The notes: generated from the letters alone by a model not told the origin. A stretch of 64,000 bases of DNA from Halorhabdus amylolytica (GCF_004944975.1 NZ_SPQG01000010.1:1-64000); one strand, 5' to 3'. Positions 1,444 to 19,873 are shown, counted from the first letter of the stretch. Program-made: numbers and translations.

Positions 1444-1675
1444 ACGTATCAGGGGGCAGGACACGACCTGCCCGCACCCATCCTGGGGCGCGACAAACAG
1501 CTCTCTTGAGCCCCGCTCGTCCGTTCTGCTACGACGACTGCTCGACCCTCCACGCCTCACGCCATCGTCTGGGTGGCAGCTCTCCACCCTGGCCCGCGGC
1601 CTGGCACCTCGGCCCTGTTGGCCGCGAACGCAACTTTAGGCGGCCACCCCCACCACATATCGGTTGATTTTCCTG

Positions 1676-1856
1676 CTGTCTAGTAGCCGAATTCGGCCCC
1701 AAATCGCAAGACAGCGATACCTGACACCAGATTTTGGGAGCTGTCCAGGGACTCACTCGTTAGTGAGTCTGGTGTCTAGTGCTGCCGTCCTGCGATTTGC
1801 GGACTCAGAACGATCCCTATAATATCTGGTGTCTAGAACAAGTCAGGGCTGGTGTC
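1676..1856. repeat. Cluster of TCTGGTGTCTAG direct and inverted repeats
   Basis: The 12-mer TCTGGTGTCTAG occurs at 1768-1779 and 1825-1836. Its 9-bp core appears inverted as GACACCAGA at 1723-1731, a partial copy CTGGTGTC lies at 1849-1856, and CTGTCTAG at 1676-1683. CAAATCGCA (1700-1708) is inverted as TGCGATTTG (1791-1799). The cluster may be an operator array, a recombination site or an origin of transfer; nothing in the sequence decides between these. Confidence 0.6.
1751..1768. repeat. Perfect 7-bp hairpin inside the repeat cluster
   Basis: ACTCACT at 1751-1757, loop CGTT, AGTGAGT at 1762-1768. It lies directly next to a TCTGGTGTCTAG copy, so it could be part of a protein-binding site or a nick-site hairpin. 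There is no T-run, so a terminator is less likely. Confidence 0.55.
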
Positions 1857-1890
1857 AGCCGGTCCAGCCGGGCGATTGGAGAGGAAGCGT

Positions 1891-3906
1891 CTATTGGTCA
1901 AACGAAACGAACTGTTTCGCCCTGTCCAGAGGGGACTGGTTCTCGTCCCGATCTTCTTGCTTCGGCTCTTGCTCGAACTCACGTTCTTCGAGAGCAGTTT
2001 CCAGCCGATTGCGTTCGGAGCGTACGGTAGCGAGTTCTGATCGGAGCTGGTTGACCTCCGCTTCAAGTTCCTTGATTCGCTCCGATTTCTCCTCCAGTTC
2101 GGACTCGAGACGCTCGACCTTCGCTGTCAACAGCCGGTTCTTTTCGCGGAGGTGTGCCCGGTCCAAGTCACCAGGTCGCTCGTCGCTCGGGAGAGCATCA
2201 GGGATCGACTCCGACTCGTCGTCAGCTGTGTCCTCCTCGGGCGTGACTTGCTCTCGCCCGTGGTTCAGGCCCGCGTCTTCGATGGCTTCTAGCGTCTCGT
2301 TGTAGGTTTCGTAGCCGGGGAACCCCTCGTAGGTTCCATCCTCTCCCTCGCGATCGACGAACGCGTCCTCGGGACAGACTTCAAGCGCGACAGCCGCTTT
2401 CCGAACGGCCCAGAAGGGCATCTGGTCATAGGTTCCGCCGTCGACGCGGTCTGACCCGGCCTCTGGAATCCACACTGGAATGTCGTAGCCGGCGTTCCGC
2501 AGTTCGTCGACGGCCGCCCAGTAGTCGTCCCCATCGAGGTCCGCATCGGCGTCGGAGATAATCCCCGTCGCGAGCGCCATCAGTTTCGCTGGCCCGCCGC
2601 CGGCGTTCACCTTCGAATCGCCGAAGGTGTTGGCCTGTTCGTCGACGAAACAGGACTGCCCGCTCTCGCTGTGGCGCCAGCACGGGTCGAACTGCGGCCG
2701 CGGCTGGTTCGGATCCGTATCGTAGGCATCACTCGCGTAGTGGCGGGCGATCTCAGTGATATCGATGTTCTCGACGGCCTCATAGACGTCCTCTTTGAAC
2801 GGCGTAATGGGGCGACCTTCGAGGGCACCATCTAGTTCCTTCAGTCGCTCTTCACGTCGCTGGAGCGCCGCCTCACGCTGGCGCTGTCGCTCCCGTTCCC
2901 GCTCGCGCTCCGCTTCGACCCAGGCCTCCAGCGTTGCCCGCCACTCGTCGTGGTCCTCGTAGAGATCCGGCCAGAGCGTCGCGACCAGCGAGTCGACGCA
3001 GTCCGTGTGCTGGACCCGCGTGAGGTCGTCGGCCCAGTTGACCGCCTGCTCGATGAGGGCGTTGTCGACGGTCTCGAACGGACGGAGCTCGTAGCGGACG
3101 TCGTCGGTCGCGATGGGCGTGACGACGGCATCGTGGTCGGCGTGAACCGACAGCGGCGGCTTGTACTGCCGGTTCTTGTTGTTCACCCAGTCGGGCTGGA
3201 TGATGTCGCCGGCGCCGGCGACGCGCTCGTTCACACGGGTTTCTGCCTTCTGGAGCCACGCGTTCGAGCGGTCGAGAAACTCGTCGAAAACCCGTTCGAG
3301 CGCATCCGGATCGTCGCTGAAATGATCCGCAATCGGGAGCGTAGCCTCCGGGGCCCCGAAGACGTACGCACCCCCGACGGAGTCCAACGCATACACCGCG
3401 TCCCGCGTGCCGTAGAGCGTCGCGTACTCCTCGATGTAGGCGTCGAGCGTTCGCTCGACGAGCGCCTGTATCTCGGCATCGAGGTCACCACGCTGCGGCT
3501 TGATATCGTCAGCGAGGTCGATATCGCCCCAGGCGGGAACCGCCCGGAGGTCGGCATATCCGGGGGTCGGGGGCTCATCCTGCCAGACAGTCGTCCCCTC
3601 GGACTCGTCGTAGCGACAGGGTTCCCATTGCTGGAAGGCAGACGGTGTCTTGTAGGTGGTGACGGCGTAGAGCGTCCGTTCGAGGCGGTCGTGGATCTCG
3701 TCGTAGTCACGATCGAGGCGGGCGACCCGCCCGCGCTGGTAATACCCGGCCTTGATCGCCTCGACGTCGTCGTGGTCGCGTTTGATGTACCACCCGACGA
3801 AGTCGTTCAGCCCGATAGTCGGGTAGTCACTGACGGTCGCCAGCGCCTCGTAGACGGGTTTGGCGCGACGGTAGTGCTCACTGATGGCTGCTTCGGAGAG
3901 CGTCAT
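1891..3906 (-). CDS. AEP-superfamily primase-like protein of the transfer operon
   Basis: A 671-aa acidic protein. The N-terminal half carries motifs in the order expected of archaeo-eukaryotic primases: WGDIDLADD near residues 126-134 (D-x-D metal motif), VGGAYVFGAP near 178-187, and RQYKPPLSVHADH near 246-258 (basic residues then S-x-H). An Arg/Glu coiled coil (335-365) follows, then a segment with a Trp/Cys motif and a GGGP turn (430-470), and a long C-terminal coiled coil (600-655). Family assignment is inference from motif order. It is the last gene of the transfer operon, 39 bp after the coupling ATPase, which suggests a DNA-processing or priming role on the transferred strand. It has no relaxase HUH or Tyr motif. 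Confidence 0.6.
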   Translation of the reverse strand: MTLSEAAISEHYRRAKPVYEALATVSDYPTIGLNDFVGWYIKRDHDDVEAIKAGYYQRGRVARLDRDYDEIHDRLERTLYAVTTYKTPSAFQQWEPCRYDESEGTTVWQDEPPTPGYADLRAVPAWGDIDLADDIKPQRGDLDAEIQALVERTLDAYIEEYATLYGTRDAVYALDSVGGAYVFGAPEATLPIADHFSDDPDALERVFDEFLDRSNAWLQKAETRVNERVAGAGDIIQPDWVNNKNRQYKPPLSVHADHDAVVTPIATDDVRYELRPFETVDNALIEQAVNWADDLTRVQHTDCVDSLVATLWPDLYEDHDEWRATLEAWVEAERERERERQRQREAALQRREERLKELDGALEGRPITPFKEDVYEAVENIDITEIARHYASDAYDTDPNQPRPQFDPCWRHSESGQSCFVDEQANTFGDSKVNAGGGPAKLMALATGIISDADADLDGDDYWAAVDELRNAGYDIPVWIPEAGSDRVDGGTYDQMPFWAVRKAAVALEVCPEDAFVDREGEDGTYEGFPGYETYNETLEAIEDAGLNHGREQVTPEEDTADDESESIPDALPSDERPGDLDRAHLREKNRLLTAKVERLESELEEKSERIKELEAEVNQLRSELATVRSERNRLETALEEREFEQEPKQEDRDENQSPLDRAKQFVSFDQ

Positions 3907-3945
3907 CTGGTGTGCTCCTGCACCTCCTGAGCGGGGGCGAAACGA

Positions 3946-6900
3946 CTACGCACTGGCATCGCTCGATTCCTCCTGGTCGCCGACGTCGGCCAGCTCGATT
4001 CCGACGTAACAGCGTCGCGTCTGGCCGTCCAACCACTTCTTGTCACGCTCGAACTGAGCGTAGTCGCGAAGCGTCCGTGTGAATCGGTTTTTCGGCTTCA
4101 CCTCGTACTCCCCGGCCTCAGCATACTGCTCGTACGCATCGTAGACCTCAGCGACCGCGACGACCCCGTCGTCGGATTCGGTGAGACGGTCCCTGACGAA
4201 TGCCCGAATCCCGTACGGGTCCGCCTCATCGTCTTCTTGCGCGTCGGAATCGGTCGAGTCACTCGGGGGCTCCCCTGCCGGATGGAGCGTCCCGTCTTGG
4301 ATCGCGTCCACGAGTGGCGGAACGCCGGTAGCCGTCTCCGTGTCTGGCGTGTGGATGTCCAGCGTCTGGTCGTCCCCGACAGTCGCAATAGCATACGAGC
4401 GCTCCGTATAGTCCGGAACGGGCAGGTCGGTACTGGGCACGAACGGGCGCTTGACGAGCACCCAGTCCGATTCGAACGCCTCACGTGACTCGTAGGACTC
4501 GGGCAGTTCCCCCGGCCTGAAGACGGTGTAGGTCTCGCTCTCGGCGTCGTAGCTGTACGTCGCCGGGAACTGGTCTTTCGACACGGCGTCGAAGGAGTCG
4601 ATCCGGGCGTGTTGGTCCCCGGCACTATCCTCCAAGACGAACGCACCGTCCCGCTCGAACCAGCGGGTGTGGCGACTACCACCGGTGGCCGGTCGGACGG
4701 CCGTCACCCCATCCGCGGCTCGCGCACCGCCGTTGAATGTGACGTTGTGGTTCATCGTATACAGCCGCGTCTCACCGGAGGAGAGCTGATTTCGCGGCTC
4801 ATCGAGAATTTTCGCAAGCCGGTCGGCGATCTCGGCGGCTGGTTGATCGTCGTGGTCTGCGACGACAAACAGCGGAATTCGCTTCTGTTCTTGGGCCTTC
4901 CGAAGATTCGAGAGGACCTTCGACGGACGGACGTGGGTAGTGGTTTCGACTTCGACCTGGAGCTCCCAGTCGAGGTCCGCATGCGTCGCGATAGCGTCGG
5001 GACGGGACTCCCCGTTCTGATCGAGGACCTCCACAGAGAATCCCGCCGCTGCGAGCGCACGCTCGACCGTTTCGAGGACTGCATCGTGGTGGTCGCCCCC
5101 GCCGGTCGGTGACGTCGACGTATCGGGCGTGGCTGCCTGTTCACCCTCGTCTGTGAGCCGACACTGCACCGACGATGCCCCATCCGGGAGATCGACCTCG
5201 ATGAGCGAGGACGCCTCCCGCACTTCCGGCAGCGTCTCGTAGCCCTGCGCCTCGATGGTGCCTTCCTCGATGCGCGAGAGCAGTTCCTCGTCGACGTCCT
5301 CGACGGACACCCAGCCGTTCGTCTCGCGGACGTCGTTCGACAGCTGGACGGCGCGGATCGCCCGGGCCATCGCGACCTCCAACGGCAGGTCGTCGGCGTT
5401 CTCCAGAGCGACGTCAGTCGCCGCGTCACGGCTCTCAACGGTCGTGCCGCCGGCCACTCCGTACTCCTCGCGGGTATGCTCGTGAACAGCCTCCAGGGCG
5501 TCTTGGAACCGCTCTTCCTGCGTCCCGGTCAGAGGTTGCTCGCTATCGGGATGACCGGGTGGAATCGGGAGGGGTTCGATACTGAACGGGTCGGGGCCGG
5601 TTTCGCCGAACTCAGGACTCGGGAGCTGGGCGATCCACTCGCCACGCGGGAGCGAACTGATCCGATTCTTGAACTCGACGGGATCCATCGCCTCGTGTGA
5701 GAGTGCTTCGGCGATGTCGGCGTCGACGGCGATCTTCCCGACGAGCGGACTGCCGATGTTGTTCAGGACGTTCAGGTAGACCTCGCGGTTGCCGGCCTCC
5801 TTCATCTGTTCGGGGAACTGCGTCACGAGTTCGATGGACAGCCGGAACTCCCGCCCCTTTTCGAGCAGCGTCGTCAGCGTATCCGAGACGACGACAGACG
5901 ACGCTTCGTCGATGAGCAGGTTCGCTACGTAGTCGTCCGGCTTGCGGGCCAGCTCGTCGCCGTCGCGACGCTTGACAGCGTCATAGAGCTGCGTCAGGAT
6001 GACGCCGGTCATCACGCGGGCGGCCTCGTCGCGGAGATCGCCCAGATCGAAGATGACCACCTTGTCCTCGTCGAGGAGGTCGCGGAAGTCGAACTGTGAC
6101 TCGGTGTTGTTGAAGATTCGCCGGAGGTGAGCGTCCTGCGTGATGTAATCCATCCGGTTGCTGATGCCGCTCACGACGTTCGAGAACGTCGCCGGGTTCG
6201 AGCGCAGGTGTCGCTCCAGTTTCTCGGCCACCTGCGGGTCGCTCGCCCGGGGCGCGTCCTCCGGCGTCGGGTCCGGGGGGCCGGCGGCGTGGAACTGCGT
6301 GACTGCGTGTTCGAGCTGGTCGTGCGTGAAGTAGTCGACGTCCTGCCGGAAGTGCCCGTTTTCGAGGCCGTACTCCTCGTCGTACATCGCCTTGATGAGG
6401 TACTTGATGAGCGTCGGCGAGGCGATGGCGTCCTCGTAGCGCTCCGGCCCCATCACGAGTTTGATGAGCTCCTCGTAGTGGTCGGCCTTGTCCTGGATCG
6501 CGTCAACCCGACGGACCCCATCCTCCAGCGCCGGCGTGATGTCGAAGAACGCGAAGCCAGGCAGGATGTCAGGCACCGAGAAGTGGAGGACGTTCTCCTC
6601 GAGGTCGTCGGTGCCGAAGCGCTTCGCGTGAGCCCGCATATAGTTCTCGGGGAGGTTCCCGCCCTTGGAGTCGATCAAGAACACGGGGCCCGTGGTCTGG
6701 TCGTACAGGGAGAGCGCGTCGTTGATCAGGGCGACCGATTTGCCGGCGCCGCTCTTCGCGAACCGGCCGACGTGGAACGGAAGGAGATGCGGGGGAATCC
6801 GCATCGGCTCCGGCGTCGGCGTGCCGTCCTCCCCGAGCCCGCGGCCGATCGCCATCCCGGCGTCTGTGAACGCATCCATGTGGTCCTGCGCGGGGAGCGG

Positions 6901-8274
6901 CAGGGGTGTCCGGCTCTCGGGTTCGGCGTCGGAGCCTCGCCCGCCCTCGGTCGTGAGCTCGGTCGCCGGCGGGACGACCACGAAGTTCGCCAACTCATCC
7001 GGCCCGAGGACGAGATCGGGGCGGGTCTTCCGCCAGTCGCTCTTGGTCGTCAGGCTGGCGTTGAAGACGCGGTCGGCGTGCTTCGTAGCCCGCCGCCCCT
7101 TTCGGAGCCCGCGGCGGACGCGCTTCGGTCGGAGCCGATAGTGGGCCCCGTTCAGGTGGTCGAACACGGACCCGATATCGTCGAGACGGTGGTCGACGCG
7201 CTCGCGCTGCCGGTCAGAGGCTACGAGCGAGAGCGCTCGCATATTCACCGTGAACGTGTGCTGTGGCTCTTTCTCGTCGATGGCCTCGACGCGCTCCCGA
7301 CCGCCGATGTCGAGGTATCGGCGCTGGCGGCCGGTATTCGAGGGACTCTGTGGTTCGTTCTCCGTGTTTCCGAGGAGCTCCCCGAGGAACCAGTCGACGA
7401 TCCGGTCCTCGCCCTCGCGGAGTTTCCGCTGGCGTTCCCGTGCCTCGTGTGTCCAGTCCGGCTTCCGCTGGAAGAGCACCTGAAACGCGATCGGGTGTTC
7501 GGCGCGGGTCAGTTGGTCGATGAGTGATGCGAGCGGCGCCCGTGCGTTGTCATCGTCCTCGCCTTCAGTCTCCGTGAACTGCGGCAGCGTCGTCATCCAG
7601 TCTTCGCGTCGGGCCGCCTTCCCACACCAGGTGATTCCCAGCGGTGTCGTCTCCTCGACGCTCGGGGGCGTGTGATTCGGTTGCTGCCGGACCTCAGGCT
7701 CGGAATCGGACGGTGGGCTCGTCCTCAGATCGTCACTCGACTCGGTCCCGAACAATAACTCAGCGTCGTCGTCTGCCGATGTAGTGCTCTCAGAAACCAC
7801 GCTCCCACCGTCGCCGACTGGCTCTTGGCTTGTAGCATCGAAGGCCTCCTCAGACGCCTCAGTATTCATCTCGGGACGGTCATCGCCCCCGGCACCGCTA
7901 TCGTGAGCTGGCTCTGCTGTCGACGGGAGCAGCTTCGCTTCCAGGTCCAGGGTAACCCGCTCGAACGTCACAGTCGGTGGATACAGCGTCCGGAGGCGCT
8001 CCTCGAAGGCATCCATCCGCCGGTCGGCGCCGTAGTAGAACTCGACCGGCTCGTCCGCGCCCTCGCTCACTGCGAGGAATTCGAACACCGGCGGCGGATC
8101 GCCGAAGGGTCCGATACCGTTGAGAAGCCCATCGTTGCCGGTATCAAGGCCGTGGAGGCCGGCGAGCTGGCGAACCACAGTCTCCGGTGCAAGATCACTC
8201 CGGGACGGCGTGATTCGGATGTACTCGTCACCGCTGTTCGCAGCCGTGGGGTCTGACGGACGCTGCTCAGTCAT
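3946..8274 (-). CDS. VirD4/TraG-like coupling ATPase
   Basis: A huge P-loop ATPase (1442 aa from the ATG at 8274; a GTG at 8304 is the alternative). The Walker A motif GRFAKSGAGKS sits near residue 505 and is followed by FLIDSKGG. Later come VVIFDLGDLRDE and LLIDEASS (Walker B) and an LVTQFPEQM sensor segment, as in VirD4/TraG and HerA-type DNA pumps. It would couple DNA to the secretion channel. The N-terminal 450 residues are acidic and low in homology signal. After the ATPase comes a domain with RPDAI, LQVEVETTT and PLFVV spaced like a PD-(D/E)xK nuclease core (about 1080-1150). It overlaps the virB4-like gene upstream by 8 bp. It is about twice the usual VirD4 length. Confidence 0.85.
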   Translation of the reverse strand: MTEQRPSDPTAANSGDEYIRITPSRSDLAPETVVRQLAGLHGLDTGNDGLLNGIGPFGDPPPVFEFLAVSEGADEPVEFYYGADRRMDAFEERLRTLYPPTVTFERVTLDLEAKLLPSTAEPAHDSGAGGDDRPEMNTEASEEAFDATSQEPVGDGGSVVSESTTSADDDAELLFGTESSDDLRTSPPSDSEPEVRQQPNHTPPSVEETTPLGITWCGKAARREDWMTTLPQFTETEGEDDDNARAPLASLIDQLTRAEHPIAFQVLFQRKPDWTHEARERQRKLREGEDRIVDWFLGELLGNTENEPQSPSNTGRQRRYLDIGGRERVEAIDEKEPQHTFTVNMRALSLVASDRQRERVDHRLDDIGSVFDHLNGAHYRLRPKRVRRGLRKGRRATKHADRVFNASLTTKSDWRKTRPDLVLGPDELANFVVVPPATELTTEGGRGSDAEPESRTPLPLPAQDHMDAFTDAGMAIGRGLGEDGTPTPEPMRIPPHLLPFHVGRFAKSGAGKSVALINDALSLYDQTTGPVFLIDSKGGNLPENYMRAHAKRFGTDDLEENVLHFSVPDILPGFAFFDITPALEDGVRRVDAIQDKADHYEELIKLVMGPERYEDAIASPTLIKYLIKAMYDEEYGLENGHFRQDVDYFTHDQLEHAVTQFHAAGPPDPTPEDAPRASDPQVAEKLERHLRSNPATFSNVVSGISNRMDYITQDAHLRRIFNNTESQFDFRDLLDEDKVVIFDLGDLRDEAARVMTGVILTQLYDAVKRRDGDELARKPDDYVANLLIDEASSVVVSDTLTTLLEKGREFRLSIELVTQFPEQMKEAGNREVYLNVLNNIGSPLVGKIAVDADIAEALSHEAMDPVEFKNRISSLPRGEWIAQLPSPEFGETGPDPFSIEPLPIPPGHPDSEQPLTGTQEERFQDALEAVHEHTREEYGVAGGTTVESRDAATDVALENADDLPLEVAMARAIRAVQLSNDVRETNGWVSVEDVDEELLSRIEEGTIEAQGYETLPEVREASSLIEVDLPDGASSVQCRLTDEGEQAATPDTSTSPTGGGDHHDAVLETVERALAAAGFSVEVLDQNGESRPDAIATHADLDWELQVEVETTTHVRPSKVLSNLRKAQEQKRIPLFVVADHDDQPAAEIADRLAKILDEPRNQLSSGETRLYTMNHNVTFNGGARAADGVTAVRPATGGSRHTRWFERDGAFVLEDSAGDQHARIDSFDAVSKDQFPATYSYDAESETYTVFRPGELPESYESREAFESDWVLVKRPFVPSTDLPVPDYTERSYAIATVGDDQTLDIHTPDTETATGVPPLVDAIQDGTLHPAGEPPSDSTDSDAQEDDEADPYGIRAFVRDRLTESDDGVVAVAEVYDAYEQYAEAGEYEVKPKNRFTRTLRDYAQFERDKKWLDGQTRRCYVGIELADVGDQEESSDASA

Positions 8275-10354
8275 CCTCCTGAGAGGCAGTGCTGGTTGGG
8301 TCACCGCCGTCGGCCCGAGCGCCGGCGGGGCGACTGTCCGGGCTCGTTACGCTCGCACTCGACTCGGGCTCGAGTTCGGCGACGTCCGCAGCGCCGCCGT
8401 CGATGACGTGCGCCTCGTAGTCGCTGGCTCGAATCCGAAGCGGGAACCAGCCCTCCTGGTCGATGCCGACGAGCGCCTCCGAGTACCCGTCCTCGTCCTC
8501 CCCCGCCTTCGCAGAGGTGACCCAATTTACCTGCCGCTCGCTGAGGTCGAACCACTTGGCAATCTTCTCTTTCTCCTCGTTGACACGGTGGAGGACAGTC
8601 AGTGAACAGAGGTTCGCGATGGTGCGTGCCTCCGGCGTCAGCGCGAATTCACCCCCCGTTTGCGTGATGAATTCGAGGCTCAGATCGAAGTGACGGCTGT
8701 GCCGGACCGCCGTCTCCAGGAAGTCCAGCGAGACGGCGTCGTTCATCAGGTAGTGCGCCTCGTCGATGCAGAAGACGACGCGCTTGTCGGTCTGCTTGAC
8801 CCGCTCGTACACGCTGTTGAACAGCACCTGCATCATCAGGCTGGTTTCCGCCCGGCCACGGGTACCCTCCTCCTGGTGGAGATCGAGGTAGATGACCTTC
8901 GAATCGAGGTCGAACTCGGAGGGGCGAGCAAGGTTCTCGAGTTCACCGCCCTCGCGGAACGACGGCCGGAGGTCCTTGAGCAGCGACTGGGCATCCGACT
9001 GGACGGCTTCCTGCTCGCCCTCAGTGACGTATCCGTACTCCTCGGGGTCTTCGACCATCTCCTCGAGGACCGTGATGACGTCGTGAATTGTGGGCGAGTC
9101 CCGGGTGTGCGTCTCCGGGTCGCGGGTGATCCCGCGCTTCTCGTAGGCTTCCTGGACGGCCCGCCGAAGCGTCTGGTTGCGCTCGCCGAGTGGGTGGTCC
9201 GCGACGTGCTCGAAGAACGTCGCGAAGAAGGTCATCACCCAGTTGATTTGCTCACCCCACGGGTCGATGTCGTCGACCTCCTGTAGGACGTGGTCGGGTG
9301 TCGGCTTGATCTCCAGTGGATTCAGCCCCCGCCGGCCACCGACCGTGATGCGCTCGCCATCGAGCGCCTCGTTGACGCCGGCGAACCCCCGCATCGGGTC
9401 GAGCATAATGACGACCGTATCCTCGTCGAACATCGCCCGCCGCACCAACCGAAGCTTCGTCGCGAATGATTTGCCCGCGCCGAGCCGGCCGATAACCATC
9501 ATACAGTAGCCGGTTTGCCGCTTGAAGCGGTCGAGGATGAGCGGGCTCGAATTCAGCGCGTACGTTCCGTACTCGATGCCGGGTTCGGCGAACGCCCCGG
9601 CCACGAAGGGGAACATCGCGCCGACCGCCCCACCGAGCATCGGCGTCTTGCTGTCGAGCGTCTCGTTGAACTGATCGAGAGCGATGGGGCTCGCTGAGGT
9701 GAAGGTCTTCAGCTGTGACCACCGTGGCGTCACCGGCGTCAGATTCGCGGGGGCCTGCCGGGCCGTCGTCGACACCGACTCGGCGTCGATATTCTCGCGG
9801 TCGTCGCCCCGGACCGTGAAATACATCGAGACGTCGAACGCCTGCATCGTCGTGTTCCGGAGGACGTCATACATCTCCTGGTGGTCCTCGAGGTCTTTCT
9901 CGACGCCCCGGGCGCTCGCACGGTGTTTCTCGGTCAGGTACTCGTGGTCGGCTTCGAGGTCCTCGATCTTATTCTCCAGCGAATCCAGCGTCTCTCGCGT
10001 GTCACGAGGGTCGATGTGGATGCTGACATCCGTCTGCTGGGTCTCGGCGGCTGCGTACAGCTTTTCAAGGAAGCCGTCCATCGGCGCATCGGGGTACTCG
10101 CCGACCCACAGGCTCTGCGCCCACTGGGTGTCAGTCCTGAGAGCGCTGGGTGTTCGCTCGATACTCGATGGCGAGACGACTGTCTGGTGGATTTCGGGGA
10201 TGCCGTCGACGGCCTCACCGTCGGCTTCGTAATCAACAGTGAGCTGGGGCTCGTCATCTTCTGGCTCCTGTTCGTCGGAGACCTCGTCTGCGGTCGCCTC
10301 GTCGTCAGTTTCCGAACTGTCCGAGCCGGTGAAGGGCAGTAGGTTTCCAATCAT
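8267..10354 (-). CDS. VirB4/TraC-like secretion ATPase
   Basis: A 695-aa ATPase that would power pilus assembly or DNA export at the cytoplasmic membrane. Walker A is GRLGAGKS at residues 289-296, followed by VVIMLDPMRGF. Walker B is VVFCIDEAHYLMND, then FITQTGGEF and a C-terminal segment TVLHRVNEEKEKIAKWF that is typical of VirB4 proteins. The first 50 residues are very acidic. Its start overlaps the end of the upstream PrgI/VirB3-like gene by four bases, and its end overlaps the coupling-ATPase gene, so the three are probably co-translated. Assignment to the VirB4 family is firm; the substrate is inferred from the operon. Confidence 0.9.
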   Translation of the reverse strand: MIGNLLPFTGSDSSETDDEATADEVSDEQEPEDDEPQLTVDYEADGEAVDGIPEIHQTVVSPSSIERTPSALRTDTQWAQSLWVGEYPDAPMDGFLEKLYAAAETQQTDVSIHIDPRDTRETLDSLENKIEDLEADHEYLTEKHRASARGVEKDLEDHQEMYDVLRNTTMQAFDVSMYFTVRGDDRENIDAESVSTTARQAPANLTPVTPRWSQLKTFTSASPIALDQFNETLDSKTPMLGGAVGAMFPFVAGAFAEPGIEYGTYALNSSPLILDRFKRQTGYCMMVIGRLGAGKSFATKLRLVRRAMFDEDTVVIMLDPMRGFAGVNEALDGERITVGGRRGLNPLEIKPTPDHVLQEVDDIDPWGEQINWVMTFFATFFEHVADHPLGERNQTLRRAVQEAYEKRGITRDPETHTRDSPTIHDVITVLEEMVEDPEEYGYVTEGEQEAVQSDAQSLLKDLRPSFREGGELENLARPSEFDLDSKVIYLDLHQEEGTRGRAETSLMMQVLFNSVYERVKQTDKRVVFCIDEAHYLMNDAVSLDFLETAVRHSRHFDLSLEFITQTGGEFALTPEARTIANLCSLTVLHRVNEEKEKIAKWFDLSERQVNWVTSAKAGEDEDGYSEALVGIDQEGWFPLRIRASDYEAHVIDGGAADVAELEPESSASVTSPDSRPAGARADGGDPTSTASQEDD

Positions 10355-11364
10355 GATTTGGTGATGACGGGGGACGTGCGGAGCGCCTGTTCGGGGTCGC
10401 CGTACTCGATTTCCGTACCGCTCCAGTATTCCGCGATTAGGCGGGTGAGTTCGGCCGCATCGACGGGGCGCGTGTCACACCCCTCGATGCCACGCAGGCC
10501 GCGCTCGACCCGCCGGCGCCGCTCGTCCAGTTCCTCGAGCATCGCGGCTCGCTCCTCCTCTTCCGGCGGCGCCGTGACAATCTGGACGAGGATGCCCAGT
10601 ACGGGGATCCCAGCGAGCTTTTCGAGGAGGCTGGCCCGTTCGTACCGGACCTCCTCGGGCCGCACCGGGATCAGGACGTAGTGGTCGCGGATGGTCATCT
10701 GGCGCTGCGCCAGCTCTCGGTCGTACCAGTCGACGTAGTGCTCGATGAGCGCCTGGAGTTTCTCGTTAGATTTGACGTCGGGGTCGCTCAACCGGTCTTC
10801 GTACCGCCCGACGTACTCGTCGGCGGGGAACGCCTGCGTCGTCGAGTAAATCTGGATCGGGAACTCGACGGTCGTATTGACGAAGTCCTGGAAGGCCTCT
10901 GCCTTCTGGGCCCACTCCTCGTCGGTCGCGAGCGCCATGGTCGGTGGCGACACCTGCACCGCGCCGACGAGGGCCCGATCCGTCCGCTCGATGGCGTCGT
11001 GTCGCGGGTAGACGCGCTCGACGTGGGTGTACTCCTTCGCCTCCTCGTGGGCGATCTCCGTCTCGCTGCGGTGGAAGTTCACGAACAGACCGAGCCAGTC
11101 GAGACTGTTGGTGTAGCCCGGTGTGAGGTAGACGAACAGCCCACCGAAGGCGATCGCAATCGCTGCGAGGGGGATTGTGAGGGCAGACACCGGGATGCCG
11201 CGGACCGTGAGCGACGGTGGGATAACGACCTGCGTCACCAGGACTACCAGGACACCGGGAAGGCCCGCAACGGCGAGGTCCGTCAGGGAGTACTTCCCGA
11301 GGAACTGGGTGTCGGTACCGAGCGACTTCGGAATTCGTTTTGCGGGGTCAGTTGCGGAGCTCAT
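10351..11364 (-). CDS. PrgI/VirB3-like membrane protein
   Basis: A 337-aa protein. The N-terminus has hydrophobic segments near residues 30-52 and 55-85 with a short charged gap, as in PrgI/VirB3 proteins. A soluble part then resembles the amino-terminal domain of VirB4-type proteins (EYTHVERVYPRHDAIERTD and a long helical hairpin rich in Glu and Arg around 250-290). It lies between the VirB6-like channel gene and the virB4-like gene, the usual place for VirB3. A 4-bp overlap couples it to the ATPase. The precise fold is inference. Confidence 0.65.
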   Translation of the reverse strand: MSSATDPAKRIPKSLGTDTQFLGKYSLTDLAVAGLPGVLVVLVTQVVIPPSLTVRGIPVSALTIPLAAIAIAFGGLFVYLTPGYTNSLDWLGLFVNFHRSETEIAHEEAKEYTHVERVYPRHDAIERTDRALVGAVQVSPPTMALATDEEWAQKAEAFQDFVNTTVEFPIQIYSTTQAFPADEYVGRYEDRLSDPDVKSNEKLQALIEHYVDWYDRELAQRQMTIRDHYVLIPVRPEEVRYERASLLEKLAGIPVLGILVQIVTAPPEEEERAAMLEELDERRRRVERGLRGIEGCDTRPVDAAELTRLIAEYWSGTEIEYGDPEQALRTSPVITKS

Positions 11365-11367
11365 GGT

Positions 11368-12729
11368 TTACTGGATGTATCGGGGCGGGTCGTCTCTCGA
11401 CTCGCGATTCCGGTTCCGCGGCTGCGGGTCGCGGAGAGCCTCGTCCCGCTCGAACTCTCCGCTCCCGTCGTTGTCACCGCCATCCCCGCCAGAGCCGGTA
11501 CTGGCGGTCGAGCCACCGCCGCCGCCACCGGAGCCGCCTTGCCCGCCGTCTCCGCCGCCGTCCGTAATCGCCTCGCGAAGACGGGAGCCGGTCGTGTTGA
11601 GGCGCTGGCCGGTCGCGTGCGCTCTGGAGTCACCGGAGTTCAGCACGTACTGCCCTCCGCTCTTGACCGCCGGCTCGTCGCGCACTCCACGGACGAAGTT
11701 CTTCCCGCCCTGCTTCGCCGACTGTAGCCGTTCCCGGCCTCTGGACAGTCGCCCACGAGCCTTCTGCGCCGAGACGTGCCGGGCGGCCCGATCGGCGATG
11801 AAGAACAGAGCCCCCGCCTGCCAGAAGAGGATGAACGGCGACGCCACGGCAACCAGCGGGATGATGAGCGCAGTCAGCCACGCTCCGAACTCGCCGGCAG
11901 ATGGGCCAATGCTGGTCCCGAGGATATCGCCAAGCCGGAACAGAAGGGCGACTGGAACCGTCATAAACAGGAACGGCACGTAGAAGCCCGCGAGCTTCTT
12001 CATAAACTTCGAAGCCAAGGCGAAGGGACCGACTCCCGGAATCCAGAAGACGATGAGCAACGGCATCAGGAAGACGAACAGGTAGAGCGCGAGGTGACGA
12101 GCCAGGTAAATCAGACCGATGAGAACGAACAGGATGAAGTTCGTCGACAGGGCGACGACTGTGCCGAGGACTCCCATCGTCGAGAACGACAGGGTCTGGA
12201 AGAGGGTAATATCGGAGACGGAGGGCACAAGGAACCCCGCCAAAGCGTCCATAAACCGGAGCGAGAGGGCTGCGATCCACCACCACGACAGGATGCCGAG
12301 CAGCCCCGAGAAGGCTCGTTTCTTCAGCTTCGAACGATGGTAGCCATTGAACAGGTGGCTCGTCGACTCGAGGAAAATCACAATCCCGAGAGAGAGTCCA
12401 TACAGCGTGAGGGTCAGCGGGATCATCGTCTCCCAATAGAAGTCGTAGATTCGAGGCCAGGCACCGTTCGAGGGAGCACTGAAGACAGAATCGGGATGTG
12501 GGGTTCCCACGACAGTTCGCAGAACAGCATCGCCGTGATTCTCGATAACCGTCCGAATAGGGCTGAACAGAATCCGGAGTAGTTCCTGAATCGCCCCAAT
12601 GATGATATCACCGAGGGCACCACCGTCGCCGCCCCCGTCGCTTTGTGCAGCCACTGGAGCTGGTCCGAGAAGAAGTAATCCGACGAGACCCGCGACAGCC
12701 GAGACCACTCGTCGACGAACCCTACGCAT
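11368..12729 (-). CDS. VirB6/TrbL-like polytopic channel protein
   Basis: A 453-aa membrane protein. The start is the ATG at 12729, which overlaps the previous gene by 8 bp and opens directly into a signal peptide (MRRVRRRVVSAVAG..., cleavage near PVAAQ). About six or seven hydrophobic helices follow (including LTLYGLSLGIVIFL, LALYLFVFLMPLLIVFWI and AWLTALIIPLVAVASPFILF), and then a basic and Gly/Ser/Asp-rich cytoplasmic tail. This layout fits TrbL/VirB6 inner-membrane channel components. The long disordered Gly-rich tail (about residues 385-430) is unusual. Confidence 0.7.
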   Translation of the reverse strand: MRRVRRRVVSAVAGLVGLLLLGPAPVAAQSDGGGDGGALGDIIIGAIQELLRILFSPIRTVIENHGDAVLRTVVGTPHPDSVFSAPSNGAWPRIYDFYWETMIPLTLTLYGLSLGIVIFLESTSHLFNGYHRSKLKKRAFSGLLGILSWWWIAALSLRFMDALAGFLVPSVSDITLFQTLSFSTMGVLGTVVALSTNFILFVLIGLIYLARHLALYLFVFLMPLLIVFWIPGVGPFALASKFMKKLAGFYVPFLFMTVPVALLFRLGDILGTSIGPSAGEFGAWLTALIIPLVAVASPFILFWQAGALFFIADRAARHVSAQKARGRLSRGRERLQSAKQGGKNFVRGVRDEPAVKSGGQYVLNSGDSRAHATGQRLNTTGSRLREAITDGGGDGGQGGSGGGGGGSTASTGSGGDGGDNDGSGEFERDEALRDPQPRNRNRESRDDPPRYIQ

Positions 12730-13621
12730 CGTCACCACCACCAGGTAGTAGTTCGATGTCGACGTTCTTGCAGGGATGCTGGACGGCGGCCTGGTCATCG
12801 ATATGGTAGCCGCCGGTTAGATCAGCGCGAATCGGCTGTTCAACATCACCGTGCGGGGTTTGGACGACTACGGTCAACTCGACAGAACCCCCCTCGCACG
12901 AAACCGAATCGTCGTCACTGATGATCAGCACTCCACGTCCCTTCAGGAATCTCTGCTCGGTGTTGGGCTGAAGGAACTCCTCTTGTGGATCCTGTGGACG
13001 TTCAAACCTCGTATCGGCGATCCCATCTCCTTCGATAACCTCCGGCGCATTCGAGTACGGGGCGTTTCGGAACCCAATATTGTAGACCCACGTCGGCCCG
13101 GAACCGGTGTTTTCCACCGTGATGAAGAGCCGACCAGTACTGTTCTGGTCACTTTCGTCGACCTCCGGCTCAACATCTACGACGCTAAGCTCCGGACGAA
13201 GCTCAATCGACATCGTATCCGAAGATTCGCCCCTAACAGCGACCAGTTCGTATTCACCGGTATCGTAGGAGCCGCCGGATTTGTAGAGGATCTGGAGATC
13301 TGCAGTCGTCGCCCCTTCCGCGACGGTGGTCTGTTCAAACGTGCTTCCGTCCGGGGCGATCAGATTGAGACGGTCGACATCGTGATCCTCAGCCAGCGTC
13401 ACGACGAGGTTGGGGCCCGTGAATTCGACCTCCTCGAAGACGGAATCAGCGGGTGGGGACGACGTTCCTGTCGGCGATTCCGTCCCATTACCGGGGTTGT
13501 TTGTCCCCGAACACCCGGCGACGCCGGCGAGGAGAGCAGTACCTGACCAGGCTAAGAGACGGCGTCGGCTAATGGACCGCTCAACCTCTCGACCGTTGGA
13601 TGCAGGATTGTCTCTGGTCAT
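12722..13621 (-). CDS. Tat-exported lipoprotein of the transfer apparatus
   Basis: A 299-aa secreted protein. A twin-arginine signal (SRRRLLAWSGTALLAG) leads to a lipobox VAGC, so it should be lipid-anchored on the outer face. The mature part is acidic and beta-rich and carries N-glycosylation sequons. Two adjacent ATGs (13624 and 13621) follow a GGAGGT Shine-Dalgarno at 13629-13634; I prefer 13621, with seven bases of spacing. The ATG overlaps the stop of the surface-protein gene. It is probably an assembly or surface factor for the pilus or channel; no specific family is recognised. Confidence 0.7.
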   Translation of the reverse strand: MTRDNPASNGREVERSISRRRLLAWSGTALLAGVAGCSGTNNPGNGTESPTGTSSPPADSVFEEVEFTGPNLVVTLAEDHDVDRLNLIAPDGSTFEQTTVAEGATTADLQILYKSGGSYDTGEYELVAVRGESSDTMSIELRPELSVVDVEPEVDESDQNSTGRLFITVENTGSGPTWVYNIGFRNAPYSNAPEVIEGDGIADTRFERPQDPQEEFLQPNTEQRFLKGRGVLIISDDDSVSCEGGSVELTVVVQTPHGDVEQPIRADLTGGYHIDDQAAVQHPCKNVDIELLPGGGDDA

Positions 13622-15324
13622 CATAGGGACCTCCATGGGGGCCAAATCCGCCACCCGGTGATTCGGTCGACGAAGAACACCGCAAGGAGGAACAGCGAGA
13701 CCGGCACGCCAATCCGGAACAGCGTCGACACTATCTGGAGCACTGAGCCTTGCAGCAGCACGGTGTCCGAGTCACCGGTATAGCCGGGGGGATTGAGCCA
13801 CCAGTGACCCGGTTCGTATCGGGCCGACACACCGCCTAGGGGCCGTTCAATCGTCGTCGTAACGGTTCCGTTGCCGGTTGTGTTCAACCGCTGTCCGTTG
13901 ACGACGACGTAGCCGTCCCGTTCGTTGGTATTGATTGGTGCGCCGGTATTCGCGTTCTGGAGGATAACCCGGACGGTGACGGTGTCTTCGGTCTGGTTCA
14001 CCACCTCCAGGGTGAGGTTGCTCTCGTAGATTTGGATTCGAGCGAACTCATCGGCGGGCCGTTCCGCCTCGACACCTCTGACGAGGCCCCACGCACGGAC
14101 GGTCTCGGGCTGTTCGTCAGCCGTGGCCCGCGTCGCGATGCCGTAGCTGGCCGTGTACGGCTCCGTGAGGACATCCAAGTGAACGTTCGACGGGAGCGTC
14201 GGCGGCGACGTCGACGTTCCGTACACGTCCAGTATCGTCACGTTCTGACGGGGCGACGGCGTCGGCCCCGTCTCAATGGGATACGCGTTCACTTGGAGTG
14301 GATGGAGCGGCGAGTGAGCAGTCCGCTGTCCATCGTCCGAGCTGTAGACCAGCGTATCCCAGTCCTTGTCTCGGGCCGAGTAGAACCGCCAGACACCCCG
14401 GACGTCACCGTTTGGCAACTGGTAGCCGAGCCACGGCTGGTTCTTGTAGACGACGAGGCCGAGGTCGCCGTTCGGATACTCGGCGATGAAGCCGGCGACC
14501 GCGAGGTCGTACTTCGTGACCTCGATGGAATCGGTCACCGTGACGTTCTCGGTCGGGTATGATACGGAACTCTCCCAGTTGGTGCAGTCGCCCTCGTCGT
14601 TGTGGGCAGTACAGGTCTCAACCTCCTTCCGAAGCCGAACCGAGATGTTCGCCTGGAGCGTGAGTTGGTGCTCCTCACCGGCGTACCCATCCAAGGAGTA
14701 CGATAGCGCCGGCGTGTGAGACCCACTAGCCGTCGTCTCTTCGTCACCGTCGACGAGGAGTTTCGTCTCCTCGATCTGGTGGCTCTCGAGACTCCAGTAG
14801 ACGCGCCGGTCGCCGGAAGTGTCGTCTGGCGGCACCGCAACCCGGTAGTCGACGGTCCCGCGGAGCGTTCCATCTGGGGCGACGTAGAGCGGCTGTCGCG
14901 ACGGCGACAGGCGTGCTCGTGTGGACGGCTGGACGGCGAACACCTCGGTATAGGCTTCCTTGATGAACTGGCCGCTGGAGAGGTCGGCATCGGGCGGATG
15001 GATCGACACGGAGCTGTTCGTCGCCGGGAACTCCTGGTGGTCACCCCGGTTCCATTGCTCGACCGCCCGCGGGGGCGAATCAAACGGGACATCGGTCCCC
15101 TCGCCGAGCTGCTTGACTGCCGACCCGTTACTCAGGTTCGCGCCGTCGGTTGCGCCGTCCTGATCCCCCGACCACAGTTTGTGAAAGGTCTCCTCCGGGA
15201 CGCCGTGGTCGGTACTGTTCGGGGGATGGGCGACCGCTGGAACGGCGGCTGTCGATGCGACGAGGACGGCGGACATGACGAGTGCGAATCCTGGTGCGTG
15301 GTTAGAATCCACAACTCGTGCCAC
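13621..15324 (-). CDS. Secreted surface glycoprotein with C-terminal membrane anchor
   Basis: A 567-aa protein. It has a signal peptide (LVMSAVLVASTAAVPAVA), an extracellular domain with many N-x-S/T sequons, a paired-Cys segment near residue 240 (CTAHNDEGDC) and a C-terminal helix VPVSLFLLAVFFV with a short basic Trp-rich tail. This places most of it outside the cell. It overlaps the pilin-like gene by 23 bp. An internal ATG at 15273 is a possible shorter start. It may be an adhesin or surface component of the mating apparatus; that is inferred only from its position. Confidence 0.7.
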   Translation of the reverse strand: MARVVDSNHAPGFALVMSAVLVASTAAVPAVAHPPNSTDHGVPEETFHKLWSGDQDGATDGANLSNGSAVKQLGEGTDVPFDSPPRAVEQWNRGDHQEFPATNSSVSIHPPDADLSSGQFIKEAYTEVFAVQPSTRARLSPSRQPLYVAPDGTLRGTVDYRVAVPPDDTSGDRRVYWSLESHQIEETKLLVDGDEETTASGSHTPALSYSLDGYAGEEHQLTLQANISVRLRKEVETCTAHNDEGDCTNWESSVSYPTENVTVTDSIEVTKYDLAVAGFIAEYPNGDLGLVVYKNQPWLGYQLPNGDVRGVWRFYSARDKDWDTLVYSSDDGQRTAHSPLHPLQVNAYPIETGPTPSPRQNVTILDVYGTSTSPPTLPSNVHLDVLTEPYTASYGIATRATADEQPETVRAWGLVRGVEAERPADEFARIQIYESNLTLEVVNQTEDTVTVRVILQNANTGAPINTNERDGYVVVNGQRLNTTGNGTVTTTIERPLGGVSARYEPGHWWLNPPGYTGDSDTVLLQGSVLQIVSTLFRIGVPVSLFLLAVFFVDRITGWRIWPPWRSL

Positions 15325-15724
15325 CGACCACGATGTTGTTCAGGATGAACTGGACAATCTCCGTCCCGAGCGGCGCGACGATCACGCCCCACAGCAGACC
15401 CTGATTCCGGACCGACTTCATCTCCTTCTTCCAGTCCGACCGGCGGGTGAACGGGATCGCCACCGTCGCGCCGAGCGCGAGGACACCGCCGATGAGCGGG
15501 CCGCCGAACTGGATGATGGTGAAGATGTTCTGGATGGTGTCGGCCATATTGGAATCACAGAAGGCGCTGCCGGGATCCGACTGCGCGGCCGCCGTTCCCA
15601 CGAACAGGATCAGCGGAAGGAGCGCCAGCAGAATCGGGCCGATGGACCTGTGGATGATCCGAATGACGGACGTCGATTCCTCAGTACTGGCCGGCGTCTC
15701 GCCGGAGGGGACCTTGGCACACAT
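15302..15724 (-). CDS. VirB2/TrbC-like pilin
   Basis: A 140-aa small membrane protein. It has a long signal-like segment ILLALLPLILFVGTAAAQ with cleavage after AAAQ. Two further hydrophobic helices (FGGPLIGGVLALGATVAI and GLLWGVIVAPLGTEIVQFIL) are separated by a basic loop FTRRSDWKKEMKS. That is the VirB2/TrbC pilin arrangement. It is the first gene of the leftward operon, directly behind the palindromic promoter region. Two Cys residues (FCDSN and the C-terminal TSCGF) could form a disulfide. Confidence 0.7.
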   Translation of the reverse strand: MCAKVPSGETPASTEESTSVIRIIHRSIGPILLALLPLILFVGTAAAQSDPGSAFCDSNMADTIQNIFTIIQFGGPLIGGVLALGATVAIPFTRRSDWKKEMKSVRNQGLLWGVIVAPLGTEIVQFILNNIVVGGTSCGF

Positions 15725-17205: not shown

Positions 17206-18258
17206 TCAGATCACTCCTAACCAGAGAGCGGTGATGAGCAACAGCAGCAGGAGGAGGACGGCGATTGCGGCCTTGTAGTAGACCGGCGGAAGGCCCTCGG
17301 GGGCCGTCGCCTCCTCGACTGCCTCGGCCAGTTCCTGTTCGTGTTCGTGCTCCTGCTCGAAGGTCTCGTAGGCGGCCTCCAGTTGTTGCTCCAGCGGCTC
17401 GATCTCACTGGCGAGGAAGTCATTTCGGGACTTCGCGATGTACTCGCCGGCGGCAGTCGGCGTGATCGCGGCCATATCCGCAACCCGATCCGCGATCAGT
17501 CGGTCGTCAGTATGACCGATGGCAGTCACGATCGGCGTGTTCGTCGTGAAGATCGCTTCCGCGACCCGCTCGGTGTTGAACGCCTGGAGGTTCGAATCGC
17601 TCCCACCGCCCCGACCGACAATGATGGCGTCGACGTCCTCCGAGCGGTCGAGATGGTGAATGCCGTTCGCGATAGACGTCGGCGCGTTCGACCCCTGGAC
17701 GGTTGCGTCCTTCACCAGGATGTCGACGGTGGGGTCCTGTCCGTGAATCGCGTTCTGGATGTCGTACCGGGCGTCTCCTCGAAGGGACGTGACGACGCCG
17801 ACCCGCTCCGGGAACGCCGGCGGTTGCTGTTTCTGCTCGTCGTCGAACCAGCCACGCTCTTCGAGTTCGCTTCGCAGTCGCTCGACGGCAGCCGCCTGGT
17901 CGCCGTCGCCGACGACGATCACTTCCCACGGTTTGAGGTCGATTTTCCCACCTTCGACCCAGTAGTCGATATCGCCCTCGAGGATGACTTCGGTCCCGTC
18001 CTCGAGGTCAGCGTCCATCTCCCGGTAACGGTTCGCCCAGATCATGCAGGGGAGCTCGGCCTCGCCGTCGGTGAGCGTGAAGTAGAGCGCCGTACTGTTC
18101 TTGTGGAGGTCAGTGACCTCGCCGATACAGCGGACACCGTTGAGGGCAGGCGTGTCCTGGACGACCGACGCGATCCGGTCGTTCAGCTGTGACACGCTAA
18201 GGACCTCTCTCGCATCGGGTTCGACCGCCTGCCGTTCGGTATCCGGTGCGTCCGCCAT
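17206..18258 (-). CDS. xseA: Exonuclease VII large subunit with C-terminal membrane helix
   Basis: A 350-aa single-strand DNA exonuclease subunit. The N-terminal OB-fold (LSVSQLNDRIASVV...GVRCIGEVTDL...ALYFTLTD) and the catalytic signature GRGGGSDSNLQAFNTERVAEAIF with VTAIGHTDDRLIADRVAD are clear. A coiled-coil arm (EIEPLEQQLEAAYETFEQEHEHEQELAEAVEE) is much shorter than in bacterial XseA, which usually exceeds 400 aa. The protein ends in a hydrophobic helix AAIAVLLLLLLLITALWLGVI, so the enzyme may sit on the membrane. It is followed by xseB. Confidence 0.85.
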   Translation of the reverse strand: MADAPDTERQAVEPDAREVLSVSQLNDRIASVVQDTPALNGVRCIGEVTDLHKNSTALYFTLTDGEAELPCMIWANRYREMDADLEDGTEVILEGDIDYWVEGGKIDLKPWEVIVVGDGDQAAAVERLRSELEERGWFDDEQKQQPPAFPERVGVVTSLRGDARYDIQNAIHGQDPTVDILVKDATVQGSNAPTSIANGIHHLDRSEDVDAIIVGRGGGSDSNLQAFNTERVAEAIFTTNTPIVTAIGHTDDRLIADRVADMAAITPTAAGEYIAKSRNDFLASEIEPLEQQLEAAYETFEQEHEHEQELAEAVEEATAPEGLPPVYYKAAIAVLLLLLLLITALWLGVI

Positions 18259-18985: not shown

Positions 18986-19873
18986 ATGGCTCGGCTCGTC
19001 TTCTATCACCACCCCCAGGCCGAGAATTTCTCACTCAAATATAGCTCGGCATCGGTGGCAGAAATCCTGTCTCAGCGAGAGCAATCCGACGAGTCGACAA
19101 AGCTCATCGGGTACCCCTTTGACACACCGGTCTATGTGCTCTACGAAGGCGAGTCAGAGATCGAATCTGCCCAAGAGGTCGACTTCGATCAGGAATGGCT
19201 GAGCGACCGTATTCGTGACCTCCCCCGTGCTGGGCAGGTTGTCGCATTCCGATTAGTAGAGTTGCTCGAAGCCGCGGTCGATGTTCGCGATGAGGATGAG
19301 TTCCGGCTCTACAAGGAGTTCGAACCGCAAAAGATCCAGCAGGCACTCGATCACGTCTCTTGGGGAGATCCACTTCCGATTGTCGCTGGAGAGGTGATGT
19401 CGAATTTGATCCTCCGACATTCCCTCCCAAATGCGAATCACCGAACTGGCATCGCGATGCTGCAGTTCTGTATTGAGAGTGTGGACCCGGATTTTGAGAT
19501 GCCACGAACGCACGTCGACGACGATACCTGGCGAGAGTGGGTCAATCCCTATATTGTTGATTCTAAGCGTCTCATCACGGTCCGCCGGAACAACCTCCGT
19601 TTCAAGCAACTCGAAGAGCTGGACGTCGACCTCGTCGAACGGAAAGATGGGATCCAAATCCGGTTAGCCGAGTTCGAGCTGGATATGCACTGGCGAGAAG
19701 CCCTCACAGAGTATGCTGGGCAGCACGAATCCCACTGTACGGACTTCGCGCAGGCAGTTCTCGAACGAGCAGGACGGGACGATCTACTTGACCGTCAAGG
19801 ACCAACGAAACAAGAGTTCATCACGTATCTGGAGAACGGACTGGTCGAACGAGACTTCAGAGAAATGTTTTGA
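18986..19873 (+). CDS. Fic/Doc-fold protein
   Basis: A 295-aa protein with HSLPNANHRT at residues 145-154. This matches the active-site loop of Doc-type Fic proteins (H-x-F/L-x-D/N-A/G-N-x-R-T), which transfer AMP or phosphate to proteins. The catalytic His, the Asn pair and the Arg are present, while the usual Asp/Asn-Gly-Asn-Gly of AMPylating Fic enzymes is not, so Doc-like phosphotransfer or a divergent reaction is possible. The first 100 residues are unrelated to Doc (126 aa) and may be a substrate or antitoxin domain. No separate small antitoxin is seen; the PadR gene upstream is the only partner. Confidence 0.65.
   Translation: MARLVFYHHPQAENFSLKYSSASVAEILSQREQSDESTKLIGYPFDTPVYVLYEGESEIESAQEVDFDQEWLSDRIRDLPRAGQVVAFRLVELLEAAVDVRDEDEFRLYKEFEPQKIQQALDHVSWGDPLPIVAGEVMSNLILRHSLPNANHRTGIAMLQFCIESVDPDFEMPRTHVDDDTWREWVNPYIVDSKRLITVRRNNLRFKQLEELDVDLVERKDGIQIRLAEFELDMHWREALTEYAGQHESHCTDFAQAVLERAGRDDLLDRQGPTKQEFITYLENGLVERDFREMF

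Follow-up and report, generated by a model that had tools for sequence, protein, structure and literature searches.

A haloarchaeal transfer operon with an interchangeable primase slot, a candidate relaxase domain in its coupling protein and a candidate oriT

The conjugative primases of bacteria include RP4 TraC and ColIb Sog. Relaxases of the MOBC type, such as TraX, combine a fold of the PD-(D/E)XK superfamily with a winged helix, and the site bound by TraX consists of direct repeats at some distance from nic, according to one review (PMC12857230). In the archaea, the same review and a second one (PMC6563490) report no known relaxase on conjugative plasmids, and haloarchaeal VirB4 and VirD4 genes have already been noted in mobile elements (PMC9259645). 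The part of the literature that we covered holds no description of the three features on which this analysis centers: a primase slot after the gene for the coupling protein, a nuclease-like domain in that protein, and an associated DNA element.

The stretch of DNA analyzed here (the window; 64,000 nucleotides of Halorhabdus amylolytica, GCF_004944975.1 NZ_SPQG01000010.1:1-64000) lies at the start of a 119-kb contig, of which it makes up the first 64 kb. Over its first 21 kb, the window is 99.9% identical to a 186-kb plasmid of Halobellus limi. As originally predicted, positions 1891-15724 contain eight co-directional open reading frames, all on the minus strand, that overlap by 4-77 bp or are separated by gaps of 3-39 bp. 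The operon comprises a VirB2-like small pilin candidate of 140 aa with hydrophobic segments (15302..15724), a secreted or surface protein with a C-terminal transmembrane segment (13621..15324), predicted earlier to be a surface glycoprotein, a lipoprotein with the lipobox LLAGVAGCSG (12722..13654), a VirB6/TrbL-like membrane protein (11368..12798; PF19590 TrbL_3, 1.8e-16), a VirB3-like membrane protein of 337 aa (10351..11364) that precedes VirB4, the VirB4 ATPase (8267..10354), a VirD4-like coupling ATPase of 1452 aa (T4CP; 3946..8304) and an AEP-like primase of 671 aa (1891..3906). The VirB4 product matches the NCBIfam VirB4, CD1110 and TraC models with E-values of 3e-50 to 5e-26 (VirB4_plasma, 3.3e-50; conju_CD1110, 2.9e-45), and curated models likewise uphold the identities first proposed for VirB6 and the T4CP. 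The VirB3-like identity is plausible but weak, since the sole match, to the TrsD/TraD family (3.9e-5), falls below the cut-off. The pilin, surface protein and lipoprotein were called from sequence features, the pilin also from its position, and returned no family match in Pfam and NCBIfam searches. The same gene order is found on Haloarcula marismortui plasmid pNG600 and on other plasmids.

Several neighboring features were also recorded. The operon is adjoined by xseA, encoding the exonuclease VII large subunit (17206-18258, minus strand), together with xseB, an arrangement also seen on pNG600; their products are a possible partner in single-strand processing. A 295-aa protein (18986-19873, plus strand) contains the Fic-like stretch LPNANHRTGIA with no Pfam match, and in Haladaptatus a protein annotated as Fic is encoded at a similar position of a related operon (L023). 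The same genome harbors a second system whose T4CP belongs to the same clade (clade A), on a contig of 158,379 bases (G000:C25) with the AEP at 1913-3679 (plus strand) and the T4CP running from 155783 to the contig end; this contig is apparently a circular replicon that was opened between its T4CP and primase genes.

The original prediction that no recognizable relaxase lies beside the operon was borne out across the whole genome, where profile searches with five relaxase families yielded nothing over the cut-off: PF03432, PF03389, PF01076 and PF13814 had no match, and PF08751 produced a single sub-threshold match (E 0.1). No relaxase figures among the 25 most frequent of the 101 Pfam families matched by the 84 open reading frames of the contig. 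Furthermore, MOB-suite typing labels all ten plasmid relatives identified in PLSDB as 'non-mobilizable'.

A candidate for the relaxase activity, which the original prediction had missed, is provided by the T4CP itself. This protein matches the Pfam T4SS-DNA_transf (3.8e-5, over the cut-off), TraG-D_C and HerA models, and its C-terminal 540 residues contain a nuclease-like domain (4744..5109, minus strand) with residues H1073, D1103, E1118, E1120 and K1129. In 24 T4CPs from four clades, the H, the D and the two glutamates of the ExE motif are the only invariant columns of the C-terminal domain, and the lysine is invariant within each clade group. The H..D..ExE..K order, with E1118-V-E1120, corresponds to the ExE variant of the PD-(D/E)XK nuclease pattern, with D..ExE invariant as in MOBC relaxases. 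The domain is preceded by a probable winged helix (5110..5340, minus strand), assigned from the sequence pattern ..NGWVSVEDVDEELL..CRLTDEGEQ, and weak PadR/HTH matches fall on this region in T4CPs of clades C and D. The protein also has a C-terminal Pox_D5-type winged helix (4006..4206, minus strand; PF03288, 2.5e-4, over the cut-off), and its residues 1378-1441 match a PHROG DNA primase family (3.9e-5).

Profile-profile alignment (hhalign) of the domain from clades A and B with that from clades C and D scores weakly, yet brings the H, D and ExE residues together. No nuclease family in Pfam, PDB or PHROG matched the domain, nor did PF13814 (Replic_Relax). A match to a B12-binding family occurred in only one of 15 members and was not taken as real. 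The predicted structure of the T4CP C-terminus (pLDDT 39) gave only noise in Foldseek, and the AlphaFold model of the primase is similarly poor (pLDDT 44), because few relatives, all of them close, were usable for either protein. On these patterns of conservation, we regard the winged helix and H..D..ExE domain as a candidate relaxase domain, and a better candidate than the primase, without holding it to be a member of the MOBC family.

To place the window operon among its relatives, we surveyed the surroundings of about 60 T4CP relatives, which occur in 184 of the 292 genomes of the class, by searching all open frames with profiles; a primase was assigned to the slot if it was the next gene on the same strand and lay within 0.4 kb of the T4CP gene. 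This survey supports the membership of the AEP-like primase in the transfer operon, a link conserved far beyond the plasmid of the window. In clade A, all eight loci carry a primase of the window type. In clade B the slot is filled by an NrS-1-type PrimPol at 20 of 22 loci, the exceptions being one locus with an IS transposase in its place and one with the primase 1.75 kb away; in clade C, PriS followed by PriL occupies it at every one of 20 loci. For clade B, a representative aligns with the solved NrS-1 primase across the PrimPol and helix-bundle domains (1.6e-41), and clade C PriS matches PriS in the PDB at 1.3e-5; the PriL-like gene, which has no Pfam match, was called by its cysteine pattern.

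A quick tree of 67 T4CPs groups the PriSL loci in one clade and requires two changes for the AEP label, since a Natronomonas T4CP whose adjoining primase is 84% identical to that of the window groups with PrimPol-bearing T4CPs. The slot has thus been refilled more than once, its position being kept while its content changes. Because related plasmids are non-independent samples, the locus counts overstate the number of events, of which the tree gives at least a few. The gene arrangement itself is solid: in haloarchaea, the position following the T4CP gene is a dedicated primase slot, interchangeable in content according to the T4CP clade.

Two further arrangements were noted in the survey. The clade D T4CPs (L098-L112), many of them on large contigs, are nuclease-like fusions mostly without VirB4 nearby, so the fusion of ATPase and nuclease may have other uses; at about half of these loci an NrS-type PrimPol is encoded no more than 4 kb away, in most cases convergently. 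In Halarchaeum (L024, 13866-15074), VirB4 is immediately followed by an NrS-type primase without an intervening T4CP, so the association of the primase may be with the channel operon and not with the T4CP alone.

Downstream of the window primase gene lies a conserved noncoding block (1577..1890, minus strand), the clade A form of a candidate oriT or single-strand initiation element. It is composed of iterons of the TAGACACCAG type in both directions (TAGACACCAG at 1769 and 1826, TGACACCAG at 1849 and one inverted copy at 1722), a CGCAAGAC core (CGCAAGACAGCG at 1705) and a G-rich block (AAAATCAACCGATATGTGGTGGGGGTGGCCGCC, about 1602-1671). Members of the pNG600 family keep the element in an unchanged orientation, at distances of 0.2-7.7 kb downstream of the primase gene. 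The clade B element has the same layout and occupies the gap of about 170-390 bp between the T4CP and primase genes; its iterons differ between groups (GTTACGGCA, GTTCCACCC, TGTCCAGGCA), and it often has a ACGCAAGAC core in addition to the hairpin CCAACTAGTATAGANGGGGGGTNCCCCGTTGG.

The iterons thus vary in sequence between groups and the hairpin is kept with paired changes, its outer stem switching from A-U to G-C in five sequences and from C-G to U-A or A-U in six. Pair counts were mixed, with three of five measures beating all 500 shuffles and two not doing so, partly because the clade A rows are out of register. A hairpin profile matches 21 of 22 clade B loci and, weakly, two further loci (L114 and L116), and has no match in the other loci surveyed, clade C included; if the element is an oriT, it is therefore not universal in this form. 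Rfam holds no match for it. Across the 292 genomes, the hairpin core pattern has 32 matches, compared to none for the reversed control, and 28 of them lie beside a T4CP: 26 at about 230-680 bp from the T4CP match (one after allowing for an incomplete T4CP match) and two beside T4CP fragments. One further match lies by a PrimPol only, and three (L180, L181, L183) by neither within the stretch examined. The last of these, a possible mobilizable unit of 7,280 bases with the element at 4638, encodes a ribbon-helix-helix protein and an Orc1/Cdc6 protein, the gene for the latter lying about 0.7 kb from the element.

With its repeats and hairpin adjoining transfer genes, this cis element is a candidate oriT on sequence grounds; it is also a possible replication origin. 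An alternative that we rate as possible but less likely than not makes it the plasmid's origin of replication, or else the promoter or leader from which the primase gene is expressed: in clade B the element immediately precedes the primase gene and includes the TATA-like AACTAGTATAGA, iterons are typical of replication origins too, and one copy lies near Orc1/Cdc6. A primase promoter does not account for the clade A element, which is downstream of the primase gene, or for copies found alone, and the elements of Halococcus and of L114 and L116 follow the T4CP with no primase adjoining. In Halococcus dombrowskii, a full element follows a T4CP of 42% identity that retains the D and ExE residues, and an AEP, whose tail is found by the tail profile described below, is encoded 85 kb away. 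The persistence of the element with the T4CP in the absence of an adjoining primase argues against a mere primase promoter and in favor of a cis-acting transfer site.

The primase itself shows the motif order originally reported, with D128xD130, GGAY (178-181) and S253xH255, and when relatives as distant as 36% identity are aligned, D128, D130, SVGGAY (176-181), D239 and the NR and H255 of the NR..PLSxH255 context (P-L-x-H255) are invariant. The core corresponds, at 53% identity, to the N-terminal region of the pHTUR06 primase-helicase, a protein of 1285 aa in which an AEP part is followed by D5_N, an SF3 helicase domain and Pox_D5. No Pfam, NCBIfam, PHROG or PDB model matches the core; in an hhalign comparison with the archaeal PriS profile, 'NRqYK.PLSiH..hDaVVtPI' aligned with 'kRLIRLPgSLHgktgl.VtPl' exactly at the sxH motif, with a weak score. 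The motifs and the domain company make the assignment to the AEPs well supported at the sequence level. The original prediction had further proposed that the primase might stand in for part of the relaxosome, and this idea was dropped because the protein has no nuclease signature; moreover, its core derives from replication primase-helicases, and the slot accepts three types of primase whose sole common feature is priming or polymerization. The primase probably does not replace a relaxase.

In viral contigs, the searches found one distant AEP relative (38%; IMG/VR contig L027), within a 1343-aa protein with the helicase-like motif DAPTSLGKSH, and no T4CP. In Halococcus thailandensis (L013, 28-12694), an AEP with a helix-bundle domain lies beside genes for DUF499, DUF7680, a DUF1156 methylase and a SNF2/PLD helicase, surroundings that look like a defense island.

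The C-terminal tail of the window primase (1891..2244, minus strand) is made up of a coiled coil (REKNRLLTAKVERLE...), an acidic linker and a basic amphipathic end (SPLDRAKQFVSFDQ). The slot PrimPols have a tail of similar build, with a coiled coil ('YLxEKNRLLxxRVxxLE') and a linker leading to a basic terminus such as SLLSRTRRLFSGNSE. An HMM built from the tails of 18 NrS-1-type primases recovers the window tail at an E-value of 4.8e-17, and none of 200 shuffled tails passes. The pHTUR06 protein and the L012 homolog have no such tail, and phage NrS-type relatives match the PrimPol up to about residue 325, without the tail. The two single-gene primases, the AEP and the NrS-1-type PrimPol, have unrelated cores and a homologous tail, which may serve as a device for docking to the transfer machine.

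These features bear on the alternative that the slot protein is the plasmid's vegetative replication primase, placed in the operon through co-regulation of replication and transfer and having no part in the latter. The closest stand-alone relatives are indeed replication proteins of the pHTUR06 type, primases are common among the replication genes of mobile elements (PMC5862659), and the orphan element of L183 neighbors Orc1/Cdc6. This explanation predicts neither three types of primase right after the T4CP nor a tail common to two unrelated cores and missing from the pHTUR06 protein. Genes for Orc1/Cdc6 proteins are moreover already present on the contig, and we consider this explanation unlikely. 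As a remark only, it is attractive to think of a split primase-helicase, made up of the AEP and the T4CP's Pox_D5 helix, in which the T4CP would have replaced the SF3 helicase.

Taken together, these data suggest, with a probability that we put at about one half, that haloarchaeal plasmids possess a conjugation module with its own DNA-processing set, consisting of a T4CP-borne nuclease, a candidate oriT and an interchangeable primase. In this module, the T4CP would gather the plasmid and, judging by homology, pump DNA through a VirB2/3/4/6-type channel. Its winged helix and H..D..ExE domain would bind the plasmid-specific iterons and, in place of a free relaxase, cut or nick beside the conserved hairpin, much as MOBC relaxases do with a restriction-endonuclease fold. 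The adjoining primase, held to the machine by its coiled-coil and basic tail, could then initiate complementary-strand synthesis on single-stranded DNA that has been transferred or displaced, whether in the donor, in the recipient or in both cells. More tentatively, the relaxase may be hidden in the coupling protein, such that recognition and nicking of an oriT made of repeats and a hairpin, and pumping of the strand, all fall to one polypeptide, and a tail-docked, interchangeable primase restores the duplex.

The T4CP might instead pump double-stranded DNA, with the nuclease-like domain linearizing or trimming it and the primase repairing single-stranded ends. Double-stranded transfer has been suggested for Sulfolobus conjugative plasmids, which lack relaxases (PMC6563490), and in Thermus the HerA-like TdtA works with a NurA-like nuclease (PMC5365140). 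A constant primase beside the T4CP and a cis element with repeats and a hairpin fit single-strand transfer better, and we judge the double-stranded alternative improbable. That the ATPase-nuclease fusion and the primase form a defense or DNA-repair complex instead of a conjugation system is very improbable: most clade D fusions do lie on large contigs and lack a neighboring VirB4, and PADLOC models of HerA-like defense ATPases do match the P-loop domain, but these are P-loop matches, and clades A to C lie in operons with VirB4, clade A also with VirB6.

Returning to the module proposed above, its T4CP domain, primase and DNA site suggest a way for conjugation to begin and end in archaea in the absence of a known relaxase, and a relaxase within the T4CP, if true, would complete a DNA-processing module for archaeal conjugation, the first to be known in full. 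Residues D1103, E1118 and E1120, the DNA site and the primase are all testable, on widespread plasmids of which some reside in cultured Haloarcula and Haloferax strains. Furthermore, mobility typing, by which the relatives are 'non-mobilizable', probably underestimates how many haloarchaeal plasmids are mobile.

Among known systems, the pNOB8-type plasmids of Sulfolobus and pT33-3 of Thermococcus resemble the window operon in having VirB4 and VirD4 and no known relaxase; a primase slot and a T4CP-linked nuclease domain go unmentioned for them in the passages of PMC12857230 consulted. Transjugation in Thermus likewise pairs a hexameric ATPase (TdtA) with a nuclease (NurA) and no relaxase, and differs in that these are separate proteins of an integrated element that transfers chromosomal DNA, with no mention of a primase in the passages of PMC5365140 consulted. 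The MOBC relaxases TraX of pAD1 and MobC of CloDF13, compared through PF13814 and their description in PMC12857230, combine a winged helix with a restriction-endonuclease-like active site, as the T4CP domain may also do, whereas the haloarchaeal domain is fused to the coupling ATPase and has no detectable sequence similarity to them (PF13814 negative).

On the primase side, the clade B slot protein resembles the NrS-1 primase-polymerase (PDB 7RR3, 6K9A, 6A9W) but has an additional coiled-coil and basic tail, lacks a helicase and follows the T4CP; the window primase belongs to another AEP family. Compared to the pHTUR06 primase-helicase, whose N-terminal part it resembles, the window primase has no helicase and has gained the tail, and a Pox_D5-type winged helix is found on the neighboring T4CP. 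A tie between primase and transfer is also known from the bacterial MOBQ relaxase-primases and RSF1010 RepB' (PMC12857230, PMC5862659). Whereas the bacterial conjugative primases are fused to the relaxase or sent through the channel, the haloarchaeal primases are encoded beside the T4CP and come in three interchangeable types.
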